From positions 558,001 through 622,000 of the forward strand of contig NZ_AP027040.1 in assembly GCF_027924525.1 (NCBI RefSeq): a stretch of DNA of 64,000 bases. The letters run 5' to 3'. The position numbers were made by a program, and so were the translations under genes. This document shows positions 48,043 to 54,945 of the stretch, in pieces (within the stretch, counting starts at the first letter, position 1; each line of letters starts with the position of its first letter). The notes under the pieces were generated by a model. It was not told where the DNA came from, ran no database searches, and saw nothing but the letters and a program-made list of their open reading frames with translations. Source of the stretch: Aurantimicrobium sp. INA4 (GTDB lineage Bacteria > Actinomycetota > Actinomycetes > Actinomycetales > Microbacteriaceae).

Positions 48043-48777
48043 ATGACCGCGCCAATTCTTGAACTTCTGCCTGCTGTTGATGTTGCCGAAGGCAAAGCTG
48101 TCAGACTCACTCAGGGTGCACTGGGAACCGAAACTGACTTTGGTGACCCCGTTGATGCTGCCTCCGATTGGGCTCAGCAGGGAGCTGAATGGATTCACCT
48201 CGTTGATCTCGACGCAGCGTTTGGACGCGGTGAAAACCGTGCCTTGCTCCGTCGCGTGATCGTCGAAGTCCCCGGAGTGAAGATTGAACTCTCTGGTGGC
48301 ATTCGCGATGATGCATCTTTGGAATCTGCTCTTGAAAGTGGAGCGACCCGTGTCAACCTCGGAACTGCAGCACTGGAAAACCCAGATTGGGCCGCTTCAG
48401 CAATTGCGCGCTATGGTGACCAGATCGCAGTGGGTTTGGATGTTCGCGGTGAGACGCTAGCAGCCCGTGGCTGGACTCAAGAAGGTGGAAACCTCTGGGA
48501 TGTTCTTGCCCGCTTAGAAGACGCCGGATGTGCTCGCTACGTTGTTACCGATGTCACACGCGATGGCATGCTCAACGGCCCCAACCTCGAGTTGCTCACT
48601 GCCATCACGCAGAAAACGGGTAAGCCCGTTGTGGCCTCTGGTGGAATTGCCAGCCTTGATGATCTTGTTGCTCTGCGTTCACTGGTTCCACTGGGCGTTG
48701 AAGGTGCGATTGTAGGTAAAGCGCTTTATGCTCACAAGTTCACTCTCAAACAGGCCATTTCGGTCGCGTACAATTAG
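48043..48777 (+). CDS. priA: ProFAR isomerase HisA, PriA type (possible HisA/TrpF dual activity)
   Basis: A 244-residue (beta-alpha)8 isomerase. [17 protein letters not shown] has the base Asp, VVTDVTRDG the acid Asp170. Arg142 and Trp144 in RGWTQEGG match residues that mark PriA, the actinobacterial enzyme that also performs the TrpF reaction of tryptophan synthesis. Dual activity is inferred; a trpF gene elsewhere would argue against it. AGGAAC precedes the ATG. Confidence 0.9.
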
Positions 48778-48785
48778 GACACTCC

Positions 48786-49598
48786 ATGGCACACTCACAC
48801 GACGGTCACATGTTTGGATCCTCTGACCACGCGGATTCTGCGGGACAGCCATGGGAAGGGCGCGAGTTCGAAGAGAATCCCTTCGCCGCAGATGATGGAA
48901 CAACCCCAGAGCATCTCAAACTTGCTCTGGATGCTTTCCACTCGTTGCCTTTAGATTCAGACGAACGAGCAGGGCGTCATATGAACGTTGTGGATGCTCT
49001 TCGCATCTCTCGTTTCCTTGTTCCACTTCTTGCTGAAGCAGGAGACGTGGGCGTCAACGCTGCGGGCCTTGTTGTTGATAAAACTCAAGAGTTAGCCATC
49101 GTGACAGTTGCGGGACCCAGCGGACAAAAAGTGTTGCCAGTCTTTACCTCTGTTGTAGCAATGCAAACCTGGAATAAGGCTGCTCGCCCAGTACCTGTTG
49201 AAGCCAGGCGTGCTGCTCTAGCTGCAGTTTCGGATGGAGCTCAATGGATGGTTGTCGATCCACAGAGTTCAACGGAAATCGTTCTGCGCCGTCCGGTCGT
49301 TGAAGCCATTGCGCAGGGTAATCCCTGGATTCCTAACCACATAGATCCCATGCTTCAAAGTGTTTTCGACAAGTCCATATCTGACGAGCCCTTTGTGAAG
49401 GCAATTCGATTAGCATCAGGTGATCCCGATGCTCGAGGCCGAGATGAAGAACTCGTGGTTCAGATTGTTCTGCCCCCGAGTCTGGAACAAAACGAGGTGG
49501 AGCGAGTAATTCGCTCGTTGTCTAACAAGTGGGCGCAAGAGGAAATATTCTCAGAGCGTGTTGACTCAATGAGATTGCAACTCATTCCTGCTGTCTAA
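48786..49598 (+). CDS. SseB-family protein
   Basis: A 270-residue protein with an acidic His-rich N-terminus (HSHDGHMFGSSDH), then an SseB-type domain (ALRISRFLVPLLAE, LPVFTSVVAMQTWN, WMVVDPQ). Function is unknown. It follows hisA after eight bases, a common actinobacterial position. A strong terminator follows. Confidence 0.85.
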   Translation: MAHSHDGHMFGSSDHADSAGQPWEGREFEENPFAADDGTTPEHLKLALDAFHSLPLDSDERAGRHMNVVDALRISRFLVPLLAEAGDVGVNAAGLVVDKTQELAIVTVAGPSGQKVLPVFTSVVAMQTWNKAARPVPVEARRAALAAVSDGAQWMVVDPQSSTEIVLRRPVVEAIAQGNPWIPNHIDPMLQSVFDKSISDEPFVKAIRLASGDPDARGRDEELVVQIVLPPSLEQNEVERVIRSLSNKWAQEEIFSERVDSMRLQLIPAV

Positions 49599-49609
49599 TT
49601 CCAATTCTG

Positions 49610-49638
49610 GAAACCCAGCCCTATACGGGCTGGGTTTC
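49610..49638. terminator. bidirectional terminator between sseB and yhgE
   Basis: A perfect 12-bp stem GAAACCCAGCCC / GGGCTGGGTTTC with TATAC loop. The last codons and stop of the minus-strand yhgE gene lie within the stem. Confidence 0.85.
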
Positions 49639-51405
49639 TCTAGTGAGTGTGGTGATGGAAACGTGGCGCTTCCGCGAGATAGAAACAGCCGTTACCGCAA
49701 TTGCTCCGAGTGTCCACAACACCATTGCAGTGATGGCACCTGCGAATCCAGACACCTGCCCATCACTGATGATGGCCTGCAACGCAGTTACCGCTCCTGT
49801 AGCTGGTGTATAGCCCAGGATGCTATCGAGTATCTGTGGCACCGTTGAGATTACGCCGGTGACGAGGATAAGAATTCCAACCGCAAGTGAGACCAGGCGG
49901 CCAAAACCGCCCAATACGGCAACTAGAGCTTGGTTGGTTGCTGTGAATGCCAGGCTGATGAGCGCTGATACCAGTGTGATCGAGACCCATTCCGCAACGT
50001 CGTAGCCTTGCGCGAAAGCAATCACGGTTGCTACCGCAACCGCTTGCGAAATCGCTGCCACGGCAGGGATTCCGTAGGCACGGGTTGCCAGTGAGAGTGA
50101 GGATCGGGTTGATTCAAGAACACGCAGCGGAATAGCCCTAAGCACAATGAAGATGGCAAGTGCGCCCAGCCACAGTGATAACACCACATACAGGGGAGTG
50201 CTGTTAGCGCCGAAGGTGAGCCCGCCACCGTTCTTGATTTCTACCGGGGCAGTAACAAGATCAGCCAGAGTGCTGACTTGATCCTCGGTGTAGGTGGGGA
50301 TATTGGCTACAGCTTCGTCGAGCCCGTCTCCAAGCTTCTGAGAACCATCGCCCAGCGCACTCGCACCAGAAGCGATGCCGCTCACTCCGGTAGCGATACC
50401 TGAGCTACCTGCAGCAAGGTCGCGAATTCCTGTTGAAAGCGCAGGCATACCACCAGCTAGTGCCGAGGTTCCCGTTGCGAGGCCCGAAGTTCCTTGAGCA
50501 ACGCCCGCAGCTAGAGGAACTAGCTGTTGTGACAGAGTTCCACTAATCGTGTCTAGTCCGCCACAATATTGCTGATTGTTACTGGTAACAGCAAGACAGG
50601 TGTTCCCTGAAAGTGTAGCCAGACCCCCGGCGGTTTGACCTAGTGCTCCAGACAACTGCTGCGCATAGCCATCTGTTGTTGCTGCTCCGTTGGCAAGCTG
50701 TTGCGTTTGTGAAGGAAGCTGAGAGGTCTGAGCGTTCAGTGCCCACATTCCTGATGAGAAAGTGGAGGCTCCGGTTGCTAACTGATTTGCACCATCTGCG
50801 AGGGCATAAATTCCCTTGGTCAGTTCATCTGAACCATTTGCTGCTTCAGATAAGCCAGTGCTCAAGTCACTAAAACCAAGTAATACACGCTCCAAATAGA
50901 GTGAGGTGAGTTGCTGGTTCATGAGGTTCACAGCCGTTGAGGTAATTGCTGTAGTGATTGCGTCATCTACGAGTCGGCTCTTGTTGCTGGTTGTCACCTC
51001 AATCAGTGCCTGAGAGGCATCTGTAGCATTGCCCATCGCCGAGGTGGCAACCTTGGAGAAGTTCTCGGGGATGGTTACCGCAGCAACATAGGTTCCGTTC
51101 TCAAGGCCTTTCTTAGCGCCTGATTCATTGGTGATGACCCAGTCATAGTTGGTGTCGGAGCCATCTCCTTCAACCAAGCCCGCAGTCAAGAGGCGTCCCA
51201 ATGGTGTGATCTGGCCGTTGACGGTGACGGGCTCATCGTTGTTGACGATGGCTGCTTTGACGCGGTCGAGTCGTTCTGTGGGGTTCCACAGTCCCCACAT
51301 CAACCCACCTACAACAATCAAGGGAACAAAGATCAACCCGATGACGACGAGAAGTTTGGGCTTGCTTTCGGTTTGACCGCTGAGTCTGGTGAATAACGAA
51401 GCCAT
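49621..51405 (-). CDS. YhgE/Pip-domain ABC-2-type membrane protein
   Basis: A 594-residue protein: first membrane helix (LLVVIGLIFVPLIVVGGLMWGLW), a large external region including an Ala/Gly/Ser-rich repeat zone (about 195-380, recurring GxxxLxxG units), and five or so C-terminal helices (LWLGALAIFIVLRAIPL onward). YhgE/Pip proteins have the ABC-2 exporter fold and are linked to phage receptors and type VII secretion neighbours. It starts two bases after the MMPL gene, so both are one operon under the divergent TetR protein. Confidence 0.9.
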   Translation of the reverse strand: MASLFTRLSGQTESKPKLLVVIGLIFVPLIVVGGLMWGLWNPTERLDRVKAAIVNNDEPVTVNGQITPLGRLLTAGLVEGDGSDTNYDWVITNESGAKKGLENGTYVAAVTIPENFSKVATSAMGNATDASQALIEVTTSNKSRLVDDAITTAITSTAVNLMNQQLTSLYLERVLLGFSDLSTGLSEAANGSDELTKGIYALADGANQLATGASTFSSGMWALNAQTSQLPSQTQQLANGAATTDGYAQQLSGALGQTAGGLATLSGNTCLAVTSNNQQYCGGLDTISGTLSQQLVPLAAGVAQGTSGLATGTSALAGGMPALSTGIRDLAAGSSGIATGVSGIASGASALGDGSQKLGDGLDEAVANIPTYTEDQVSTLADLVTAPVEIKNGGGLTFGANSTPLYVVLSLWLGALAIFIVLRAIPLRVLESTRSSLSLATRAYGIPAVAAISQAVAVATVIAFAQGYDVAEWVSITLVSALISLAFTATNQALVAVLGGFGRLVSLAVGILILVTGVISTVPQILDSILGYTPATGAVTALQAIISDGQVSGFAGAITAMVLWTLGAIAVTAVSISRKRHVSITTLTRETQPV

Positions 51406-51407
51406 GA

Positions 51408-54164
51408 TTATGCCTGCACTTTCTTGCGTGAGGACGACGCATTGTCGAGATCAAGTACCCGAGCATCTACGCGAGCACTGAGGAAGCTACCCCAAGTTTC
51501 AACGGGCATGTCATCGGTGGTTCCAACCAAGAGTGTGAGGGGCTGGCCCGACTGTGATGCAGTTTCGCGAGCGGCAGCGAGAGCATCTGCCACCGCGTAA
51601 CGTTCGCTTTCAGAGGTGAGGAAGTCGATGTTGTCCAGGATGATGATCTGTGGTTTTTCCGAAGAGGCATCTTCGATGGCTTCAACGGTGTTGCGGTTGG
51701 CGTGAGTGGATACATCAATCAGTGCCACGCGCGAACGCACTGCTCCAGAACGAACTGGCAGGACCATGTTGGCAACTTTGAGCTTTCCGGTTTCGATATC
51801 TAAACGACCACTGAGTGCCAATAGAAGTGCCGAGGTGGCAATCTTGTCACTTCCGGTCACAAACAAAGTTGTTCCTGCAGGAAGAGTAAATGTGAGATTA
51901 CGGAAGTAGGAGCGGGTACCTTCTGCATTGGTGAGGCTAATATCCTCTGCAGCAATCGCAAGGTTCTTTTCTTTTGGCCAGTCAGCTAGCTCGAGTTCAT
52001 GCTGCACGCCTTCACCCTCCACATCAAAGTGGGGAAGTATTCGATCAAGCCACTTGGGCATGTACCAGGCTTTATCACCGAGTAATTGCAACACTGCAGG
52101 GACAAATGTCATGCGCACAATAAATGCGTCGACGAAAATTCCGACTGCCAGCGCAAGCGAGATACTCTTCATGTTCACGTCGCCCTCAGGCACAAAGGCA
52201 GCAAAAACTGCAAACATAATGACGGCAGCTGCAGTGACAACCTTCGCTGACCCGACAAATCCAGTCACAATCGACTTTCGAGCTTTACCAGAGTGGACAT
52301 AGTCCTCGCGCATGCGAGCGACCAAGAACACTTCGTAGTCCATGGCTAAGCCGAACAAAATACCCATCACAATAATTGGCATGAAGCTCAGAACTGGACC
52401 AGGCCGGTCAACGTGAATCAGTTCAGATCCGAATCCTTCCTGCATAACAAGAGTGACGACGCCAAAAGCCGCAGCAACACTGAACAAATAACCAACCGCA
52501 GCTTTGATGGGTACCCAGATGGAGCGGAACACCATGGTGAGCAAAATCAGCGACAGGCCTACCACCACGATTCCGAAAGGCAACAGGGCATTACCGAGAC
52601 GTTCAGACACGTCAATACCACTGGCGGTAAAGCCTGTCACAGCCAGGTCAACACCATATTTGTCCTGGAAGTAGTCCTGCTTGTCTCGAATGGCCTGAAC
52701 GAGCGCTTTCGTCTCTTCAGAGGCAGGGGCGCCCTCGGGGATGACTTGAATGATGCCGGTGTCGGCGGTCATGTTGGGGGTTGCCAGAGGAACAGCAGCA
52801 ACACCAGGAATCTTTTCCAGTTCTGTCTTGAGATCATCCATTAATCCCAGTGGGTCAGTGCTGGTAACGATGGTTCCGGTGACGAGTAGGGGTCCGTTGT
52901 ATCCTTCCCCAAAGTTTTCGGCAACAAGGTCGTAGGTAATACGAGAGCGGTCAGTGGGGGCATTTGATCCCGCATCTGGCAAAGCTAGGCGAAGATTCAG
53001 GGCAGGGAGTGCGACCACGGTAATCACGGCAACTACGGCCAGAATTGTCACAACAGGGAAACGTGTGACGGCAGTAACCCAGCCGAGGAAGAAGCGGTTG
53101 GGCTTGTGGGCCTGTGATTCAGCTTTTTGGGTTTTCTTTGGCTTGGGACGTAAGCGCTCGCCAGCGAAGCCCAACAGTGCAGGAATGAGTGTGATGGAAA
53201 TCACAACGGCCACACCGACCCCGACGGCTGCGGCCACACCCATCGTGGTGAGGAATGGAATGCCTGCAATGCCCAGACCGACAAGGGCAATCATCACAGT
53301 CAAACCGGCAAAGATGACGGCCGAGCCAGCCGTTCCAGTGGCCCGCGCCGCGGCTTGCTCGGGAGTATCACCCTTACGCAGTTCGTCTTGATGGCGAGAA
53401 ATAATGAACAAGGCGTAGTCGATACCTACAGCCAGTCCCAACATGAGAGCAAGCATGGGGGTTGTCGAGGTGACCTTAGCGAAGGCAGTTGCTAAGAAGA
53501 TCAAGGCAATAGAAATGCCCACACCCAACAGTGCAGTGATGAGGGGCATTCCAGCGGCTAAGAATGAACCAAAAGTGAAGACTAAGACAACCAGGGCGAC
53601 GCCCACACCAATAAGTTCGGTGGCAGTCACGGTGGGCATGCTTTGGCTATATATCTGACCACCGAGAGAAACGGTGCTTCCCTCGGGCAGATCGGCTTGG
53701 AGTTGCTCAGTAGCTTTCTCAAGTTCTGCTAGGGAGGAAGCCTTAATTTGCGCAGTTGGACCAGAGAACTGAATGCTGATCAAACCTGCTTTGTCGTTCT
53801 TGCTTATTGCACCGTTAATGCGTTCATTGAATGGCGAAGTGGCGTTATCGATCTGGGGAAGTTTTGCCATGTTGTCTGCAGCAGCATTGAGAGCATCTTC
53901 ATAGGTTGGGTCAGTGATGAACTGCCCGTCAGCTGCCACAACAATAATTTGTGCTGAGGCACCGCTGACTTGGGGGAATGTGGTGCTCAAGGAATCCAAA
54001 GCAGCCTGTGACTCTGTTCCGGGGATGCTGATGCTGTTATCGAGGCCTTTGTTGAAGACCGCAGCGGCACCACCAATAGCGACAAGGATGACCAGCCAGG
54101 AAACGAGAACGAGCCGGCGAGAACGGTAAGCCCAACGTCCCAACGAATACAGCAAAGATGACAT
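51408..54164 (-). CDS. MMPL/RND-family exporter with C-terminal ABC-ATPase-like domain
   Basis: A 918-residue protein. Residues 1-720: MMPL architecture with a first helix (VLVSWLVILVAIGGAAAVF), two periplasmic loops and two bundles of five to six helices (AVGIDYALFIISRHQDEL and LAMDYEVFLVARMREDY are the paired TM4 motifs). Residues about 735-918: a soluble domain resembling an ABC nucleotide-binding domain, with AIAAEDISLTNAEG, a P-loop place reading VTGSDKIATSALLLALSG (769-786; GxxGxGKS lost) and a Walker B place PQIIILDNID (838-847; catalytic Glu replaced). No LSGGQ is seen. AAGGGCA precedes the ATG. Confidence 0.92.
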   Translation of the reverse strand: MSSLLYSLGRWAYRSRRLVLVSWLVILVAIGGAAAVFNKGLDNSISIPGTESQAALDSLSTTFPQVSGASAQIIVVAADGQFITDPTYEDALNAAADNMAKLPQIDNATSPFNERINGAISKNDKAGLISIQFSGPTAQIKASSLAELEKATEQLQADLPEGSTVSLGGQIYSQSMPTVTATELIGVGVALVVLVFTFGSFLAAGMPLITALLGVGISIALIFLATAFAKVTSTTPMLALMLGLAVGIDYALFIISRHQDELRKGDTPEQAAARATGTAGSAVIFAGLTVMIALVGLGIAGIPFLTTMGVAAAVGVGVAVVISITLIPALLGFAGERLRPKPKKTQKAESQAHKPNRFFLGWVTAVTRFPVVTILAVVAVITVVALPALNLRLALPDAGSNAPTDRSRITYDLVAENFGEGYNGPLLVTGTIVTSTDPLGLMDDLKTELEKIPGVAAVPLATPNMTADTGIIQVIPEGAPASEETKALVQAIRDKQDYFQDKYGVDLAVTGFTASGIDVSERLGNALLPFGIVVVGLSLILLTMVFRSIWVPIKAAVGYLFSVAAAFGVVTLVMQEGFGSELIHVDRPGPVLSFMPIIVMGILFGLAMDYEVFLVARMREDYVHSGKARKSIVTGFVGSAKVVTAAAVIMFAVFAAFVPEGDVNMKSISLALAVGIFVDAFIVRMTFVPAVLQLLGDKAWYMPKWLDRILPHFDVEGEGVQHELELADWPKEKNLAIAAEDISLTNAEGTRSYFRNLTFTLPAGTTLFVTGSDKIATSALLLALSGRLDIETGKLKVANMVLPVRSGAVRSRVALIDVSTHANRNTVEAIEDASSEKPQIIILDNIDFLTSESERYAVADALAAARETASQSGQPLTLLVGTTDDMPVETWGSFLSARVDARVLDLDNASSSRKKVQA

Positions 54165-54270: not shown

Positions 54271-54945
54271 ATGGGAAGCACAACCGAAGCAGAGAACAAA
54301 CCTGCAGAGTCCGCGCGACGTCAAAAAACGCGTGAACGCCTCATGGATGCTGCTTTTGAAGTCTTCTCAGAAGTGGGCATTCACGCCGCTACGGTCGAAA
54401 TGATTACCGAACGAGCAGATTTCACCCGCGGAGCTTTTTACTCCAATTTCGACACGAAGGAAGAATTGTTCCTCGCGCTCGCCGAACGCGGATACAACGA
54501 GCGGCTTGAACTGCTTCGAGCAAGCGTGGCAAACATCGACGTCATCATGCCTACCCTGCTTGAAGAAAATCCCGGAACGCTCTCGGCAACCGAGCTCGGT
54601 CCCATCGTGGCAAGCTTCCTGGAACAGCAGGGGGATAACCGGTTATGGTTCCTCTTCCAGTCCGAGTTGAGATTGCTCGCAATGCGAGATCCAGAGGTGG
54701 GGAAGCTTTTTCTCGAGCAAAAGCATGCTGCTGATCAAGAATTTGGAAACATCATCGCTGCAGCATTCACCGCGGTAGGTATCACGCCTGCCATTGCGTC
54801 TGAAGAACTTGCCATCGTGCTGATGAACACCTATGAGGCGTCATTGCAAGAGGCCATCATGGCAGGCGGAGACAAGGTTCAAGTACGTGCGCATGAGCTT
54901 TTCATGCAGCGCATGCTTGGCCTGATCAGCCAACTAGCTAGTTAG
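54271..54945 (+). CDS. TetR-family transcriptional repressor
   Basis: A 224-residue regulator. N-terminal HTH at about 15-65 (RERLMDAAFEVFSEVGIHAATVEMITERADFTRGAFYSNFDTKEELF), then a helical ligand domain. The ATG at 54271 is preferred to an in-frame codon at 54163 inside the MMPL start region. The tandem operator directly upstream implies autorepression and control of the MMPL-yhgE operon. The ligand is unknown. The stop overlaps the DUF1844 gene by four bases. Confidence 0.93.
   Translation: MGSTTEAENKPAESARRQKTRERLMDAAFEVFSEVGIHAATVEMITERADFTRGAFYSNFDTKEELFLALAERGYNERLELLRASVANIDVIMPTLLEENPGTLSATELGPIVASFLEQQGDNRLWFLFQSELRLLAMRDPEVGKLFLEQKHAADQEFGNIIAAAFTAVGITPAIASEELAIVLMNTYEASLQEAIMAGGDKVQVRAHELFMQRMLGLISQLAS

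Follow-up and report, generated by a model that had tools for sequence, protein, structure and literature searches.

Why would a pump of the MMPL family, members of which to our knowledge normally have no nucleotide-binding domain (NBD), end in what resembles the NBD of an ABC transporter with its catalytic motifs gone, and why is a gene for a YhgE/Pip protein its immediate neighbour? The question is raised by a locus of Aurantimicrobium sp. INA4, of a genus of Microbacteriaceae, whose genome is a 1.58-Mb single contig; what is here called the window is the whole stretch that was analysed, 64,000 nucleotides at 558001–622000 of that contig. In all genome and locus counts that follow, the family is Microbacteriaceae and the class is Actinomycetia. 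The literature matches listed, going by title and the start of the abstract and with subscription papers mostly outside them, include none on an MMPL-NBD fusion with YhgE.

A pump gene and its neighbour

As the original prediction, made from the letters of the window, had it, yhgE lies directly 3′ of the gene for the fused protein with a gap of two bases (Table 1). A divergent TetR-type gene on the other side probably controls the pair. Pfam PF03176 matches the MMPL protein with 295 bits (cut-off 20.5) in two stretches, which are its two halves, and the MmpL3 NCBIfam equivalog model gives 204.5 bits, below its cut-off of 1400. With MMPL/RND lipid exporters of the MmpL3 type the protein shares this core domain and both Asp-Tyr pairs, which from the MmpL3 work we take to be the proton-relay pairs and which are invariant in all 41 aligned family proteins; with both intact, the core appears to remain proton-competent. 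The NBD tail is what sets the window protein apart from them, as none of six core relatives in Clostridium, Paenibacillus, Rossellomorea and a Thermoleophilaceae bacterium has the tail or an adjacent yhgE proper. In Clostridium oryzae a 1049-amino acid MMPL-like protein (L229:70-3219) is encoded just upstream of the tail-less core relative, and its weak similarity to the YhgE profile is probably from heptad repeats.

Table 1. Features of the locus, in window coordinates
Feature	Position	Strand	Basis or remark
MMPL-tail gene, product 918 aa	51408..54164	-	
MMPL/RND exporter core, residues 1-727	51984..54164	-	PF03176
Asp249-Tyr250, presumed first proton-relay pair of the core	53415..53420	-	alignment of 41 Microbacteriaceae proteins
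Asp609-Tyr610, presumed second proton-relay pair of the core	52335..52340	-	alignment of 41 Microbacteriaceae proteins
MMPL C-terminal tail, residues 728-918, ABC NBD fold without helical/signature part	51411..51983	-	
Decayed Walker A place GSDKIATS, residues 771-778	51831..51854	-	alignment and profile comparison
Best conserved tail segment, residues 786-812 (GR, G.LKV, LP.R, VR.R)	51729..51809	-	
Walker B-like strand IIILDNID, residues 840-847	51624..51647	-	Asn in place of catalytic Glu
H-loop equivalent, residues 878-884, Thr in place of His	51513..51533	-	hhalign
YhgE/Pip protein, 594 aa, predicted ABC-2 membrane domain and long heptad-repeat helical part	49621..51405	-	
Divergent TetR-type regulator	54271..54945	+	PF00440, 2.4e-15

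The nearest named relatives of the MMPL protein, in Aurantimicrobium, have best-segment identities of 80–89%. Compared with the nearest genome (L031), 48701–53900 of the window is a mosaic with a break near the boundary of MMPL core and tail: DNA identity per 200 bases is 78–96% in the core (dS 0.59) and 93–98.5% in the tail and yhgE (dS 0.12–0.17), and the gene at 48786–49598, with 51.5–78% identity, is much more divergent from L031 than is the core.

What of YhgE itself? Proteins of the YhgE/Pip kind serve as phage receptors and are related to a component of type VII secretion. The window protein scores 111.2 bits with the N-terminal domain model TIGR03061 (cut-off 96.15) and 77.9 bits, E 7.8e-22, with the C-terminal model TIGR03062 (cut-off 102.2); sharing the former and xxxLxxG heptad repeats with YhgE/Pip (phage infection protein; EsaA/YueB, type VIIb secretion) and differing in the latter, it appears to be a divergent member. 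Foldseek alone gave weak matches to its structure model, all with E-values above 0.001, and VIA-align, which is a re-examination of Foldseek's own match list, matched it to the membrane domains of ABCG and CcmB. PF12698 is over its cut-off on the window protein and matches 40/40 relatives. On this Pfam result and VIA-align of the predicted model, YhgE is predicted to have an ABC-2 type membrane domain, in agreement with the exporter fold that had been proposed for it. Relative to Type V (ABC-2) exporters, ABCG/CcmAB, the heptad-repeat part is a feature of the window YhgE, and the window system is without a competent NBD and has its NBD half tethered to an MMPL pump. The parts available of three papers touch on these proteins: PMC4999554 says that the YhgE/PIP domain lacks known function, and there names no NBD or MMPL partner for it; in PMC3701619 YueB is required for YukE secretion in Bacillus and is also a phage receptor, and work on its fibre-forming ectodomain is cited; PMC12584985 there deals with YhgE and MMPL separately.

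The fold of the tail and its lost motifs

Is the tail an NBD at all? Structure prediction and structure search placed it with ABC NBDs and not with an unrelated fold, and, with profile comparison, they identify it as an inactive-looking ABC NBD; even from the window sequence the prediction of the fold has high confidence, except for the short end of the tail, where confidence is low. Pfam ABC_tran gives the window tail 14.6 bits, under its gathering score of 25, and among 39 family tails it matches 11 with an E-value of at most 0.01. An AAA domain was considered, as the Pfam AAA model gives the tail alone a marginal 21.8 bits against a cut-off of 21.2 (and the whole protein 18.3, below it), and was rejected, since ABC is what the structure model and the profile comparison point to, as do those relatives in which the helical part is complete.

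The apparently inactive ABC-ATPase-like domain of the original prediction is there, and the details noted for it, a Walker B ending in LDNID and a missing LSGGQ, hold too. The Walker A GxxxxGKS/T is absent; Walker B has D-N for D-E, with Asn845 at the place of the catalytic Glu; in the profile comparison the stretch from the Q-loop up to the signature is deleted and the helical part absent; and the H-loop His is replaced by Thr883 in the one hhalign comparison used (another, covering 6 rows, was set aside), where the segment aligns with ..VTHD of ordinary NBDs. Such losses would argue against ATP hydrolysis by the tail. From CcmA-like ABC NBDs (TIGR01189; PF00005) it differs by these lost motifs, by the Q-loop-to-signature deletion and by its fusion to an RND pump. 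Two family tails, L069:5168-5920 and L070:5009-5740, have a longer insert where the helical part would be and may be intermediates between full and reduced NBD.

There are well-known heterodimeric ABC exporters in which one of the sites is degenerate. Could the tail be the degenerate half of such a motor, with the active NBD encoded elsewhere and YhgE driven by ATP? Possible partners are to hand, the genome having 30 NBD matches over the Pfam cut-off. However, the window tail has lost the helical part, which the NBD sandwich requires, and in the scanned loci no ordinary NBD gene is directly beside yhgE, the few in the same stretches being at least 1.8 kb away; we regard this reading as quite improbable.

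How old is the decay? A motif census covered 85 YhgE-linked NBD-like sequences, with L190, judged by eye and not by HMM, left out. The Walker A lysine pattern is kept in 13 (5/41 Microbacteriaceae tails, 1/5 other fused tails, 5/5 fused full-length NBDs and 2/34 standalones), arginine replaces the lysine in 25 and neither is present in 47, and some of those that retain it may still bind ATP. LSGGQ is in place in 0/85, including 0/34 standalones, and a strict SGGQ-type pattern was found in none of the 85; a loose signature pattern is in eight, never at the proper place (it lies around the P-loop, immediately ahead of the helical part or close to the chain ends). As a control, the ordinary NBDs of the same genome have the lysine pattern in 29/29 and the signature pattern in 25/29. 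Five fused copies (L104–L108) are complete in the helical part and retain the Walker A lysine, but are without LSGGQ. As the standalone YhgE-linked NBDs are already without LSGGQ, and mostly without the Walker A lysine, it was not the fusion to MMPL that started the decay, which, judging from these sequences, would predate it. Among the standalones, L189, L190, L192–L196 and L199 have mostly lost the P-loop and retain GR(M/I/V) after the former Walker A helix, and they appear to be a branch with even further decay.

A tree made by a quick method has 85 rows, namely 58 YhgE-linked sequences and 27 ordinary NBDs of the one, own, genome; it omits the ordinary NBDs L148, L149 and L150 and the near-copies L031, L036 and L039, and its row ff_L120 is labelled fused though L120 is a standalone gene. 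One branch with SH-aLRT 99 splits the YhgE-linked sequences from the ordinary ones, one change is needed for fused versus standalone, and six for the Walker A lysine state. Nearest to the tail are standalone genes for NBD-like proteins that lie immediately upstream of yhgE, and the tail appears to belong to a YhgE-linked NBD-like clade apart from ordinary NBDs. The simplest course of events would be that YhgE systems of the class have a dedicated NBD-like subunit which lost first its signature and then, mostly, ATP binding, that a fusion in one lineage attached it to the MMPL C-terminus, on the cytoplasmic side, and that most fused members later lost the helical part.

The company of YhgE

The 41 family loci, which are the window and 40 hand-picked from the tail match list, all have MMPL and tail in one ORF with yhgE directly downstream, and 35 have a relative of the TetR gene. 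A frameshift or mis-called gene end was rejected in view of the identical fusion in 41/41 of them, and a chance fusion in one genus in view of its presence also in Promicromonospora, Cellulomonas, Oerskovia, Rathayibacter and Microbacterium. Overlong ORFs that would be natural single-chain tail-YhgE or MMPL-YhgE fusions were rejected as well, being different frames of GC-rich DNA.

What happens beyond the family? The tail profile, run over 296 class genomes, found fused proteins in further families and many standalone ORFs of ~230–380 amino acids, with ordinary ABC proteins forming a background among the matches. At 20 hand-picked class loci, 9 MMPL-fused (L101–L109) and 11 standalone (L110–L120, with the coordinates of the NBD-like gene of L120 in a shadow frame), yhgE is in all 20 the immediate neighbour of the NBD-like gene, in the same orientation, a count which, like the 41/41 above, depends on a good tail match as the loci were hand-picked by tail similarity. 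Because this class sample was drawn by tail, a YhgE-centred one was drawn as a counter-check, in which 118 class genomes, searched with the N-terminal YhgE model, gave 28 genes above cut-off. An NBD-like gene of the YhgE-linked group is beside all 28, 27 by HMM and 1 by eye. Eight of these loci had already been read, and among the 20 new ones the gene is directly upstream by HMM in 19 and by eye in the 20th; none of the 20 newly fetched NBD-like genes has LSGGQ or the Walker A lysine. MMPL is beside yhgE in 6/28 and in 6/6 of these the tail is fused to it. Of 13 rows under cut-off, two are within the fused locus L066 and 11 were fetched; these 11 loci of short YhgE-like proteins, four without a match to the YhgE profile, have no NBD-like neighbour. 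L215, where the contig breaks off, is excluded from the locus counts.

At standalone NBD-like loci there is no MMPL beside YhgE, and so YhgE does not need MMPL everywhere. Outside the class an NBD-like gene is directly upstream of yhgE in 5/16 loci, one with the Walker A lysine (L243) and two (L255 and L256) of unsure group membership due to near-equal scores on ordinary and YhgE-linked NBD profiles. Tandem yhgE pairs also occur there (L246–L250, L252 and L254), with no NBD-like gene adjacent, as if their products had a heterodimer-like arrangement. YhgE can then work without an NBD-like gene, given that such a gene is present in only five of 16 non-class loci and absent from the tandem pairs.

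In the family, tail prevalence was scored with the profile at E 1e-18 over 150 genomes, since single-tail searches also draw ordinary-looking ABC proteins (extra matches in ~550–615-amino acid frames at E 1e-3 to 1e-6). At least 49 of the 150 have the tail, 48 of them as part of a long frame of MMPL size and one in a frame of 313 amino acids, a lower bound because more diverged fused tails are missed at that threshold; HMM search finds the fusion in other Microbacteriaceae too, and linked to YhgE. YhgE was found in 119 of the 150, that is 49/49 tail genomes versus 70/101 tail-less ones, with a Fisher p of 7.7e-7 that is too small since related genomes are not independent. Tail and YhgE occur in Aurantimicrobium, Promicromonospora, Microbacterium, Rathayibacter, Oerskovia and Cellulomonas, at 16 of 16 informative loci among 17. 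A homologue with an intact P-loop and no link to YhgE was not found in the census, its 13 lysine-bearing relatives all adjoining a yhgE.

That these 13 retain the lysine pattern is what might be expected if the tail were a nucleotide sensor or regulatory domain of MMPL that does not bind YhgE, with the gene order due to common descent. However, the lysine is absent from most members, that of the window included, every family genome with a tail has YhgE, and relatives of the tail adjoin yhgE even where there is no MMPL; we consider such a sensor very improbable.

Conservation of the tail and its likely role

Might the tail instead be doing nothing, a decaying YhgE-linked NBD gene having run into the MMPL gene upstream of it, with MMPL and YhgE merely sharing a promoter? 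The motifs are gone from most members, the tree has six changes of the Walker A lysine, and conservation is lower in the tail than in the core: within the family the commonest residue has a mean frequency of 0.49 versus 0.74, and dN/dS of the core, at 0.03–0.06, is lower than the 0.08–0.23 of the tail. However, the tail is under purifying selection, its dN/dS being 0.15–0.23 versus the nearest relative and 0.08–0.11 in two more distant comparisons with synonymous sites near saturation. The confidently predicted fold is also hard to reconcile with a functionless remnant, as is the invariance of R787, G793 and V797 (R810 is at 98%) among 41 Microbacteriaceae proteins from many genera; D844 and D847 are at 90% in the family tails. 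The tail is also on all six MMPL proteins of the YhgE-centred loci, though six is a small number and the remaining loci had been selected for their tail. A remnant is on balance unlikely.

Where might the selection act? R787, G793, V797 and R810 follow the Walker A helix and precede the place of the lost Q-loop, within a segment that is recognisable in standalone relatives too. In working ABC transporters this region faces the membrane domain, and from this we infer contact of the conserved segment with YhgE. A mirror-tree partial correlation, for the 27 of 41 loci with usable YhgE and TetR rows, is 0.58 for tail and YhgE versus 0.49 for the tail-TetR control, and the signal is not specific as the control is nearly as high.

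With the neighbouring gene encoding the membrane half that matches this 'dead' motor half, MMPL and YhgE may be physically joined into one hybrid export machine, a proposal of the original prediction that is supported in part. Our preferred explanation, which we think probable, is that a pseudo-ATPase subunit belonging to the YhgE/Pip system was joined, as the tail, to the C-terminus of a proton-driven MMPL, and that it tethers YhgE to MMPL; the remnant, heterodimer-half and sensor readings are less likely. In such a tethered pair the pseudo-NBD would dock on the YhgE membrane domain from the cytoplasm, at the site of a working NBD, and since, though docked, it would no longer give YhgE power, its role would be that of a tether. 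MMPL would take energy from the proton gradient and move a substrate, perhaps lipid-like or amphiphilic, across the membrane, and YhgE, with its long heptad-repeat part, would carry or guide it outward through the cell wall. A bolder possibility, which we put forward tentatively, is a hybrid RND-ABC machine in which the proton cycle of MMPL moves the covalently attached dead NBD and so mechanically opens and closes an ABC-2 YhgE gate.

In the tail of the window protein and its relatives, two transporter superfamilies, RND and ABC, are united in one polypeptide, and the gradation from full-length NBDs with a Walker A down to a decayed mini-NBD is open to biochemical testing. A dedicated and widespread pseudo-ATPase partner, together with its fusion to a pump, leads to the hypothesis of an ABC exporter no longer powered by ATP, with YhgE as its membrane half. 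If the hybrid RND-ABC machine were to prove true, YhgE/Pip proteins of Actinomycetia in general would be ABC-2 exporters that work without ATP, by way of a dedicated pseudo-NBD.
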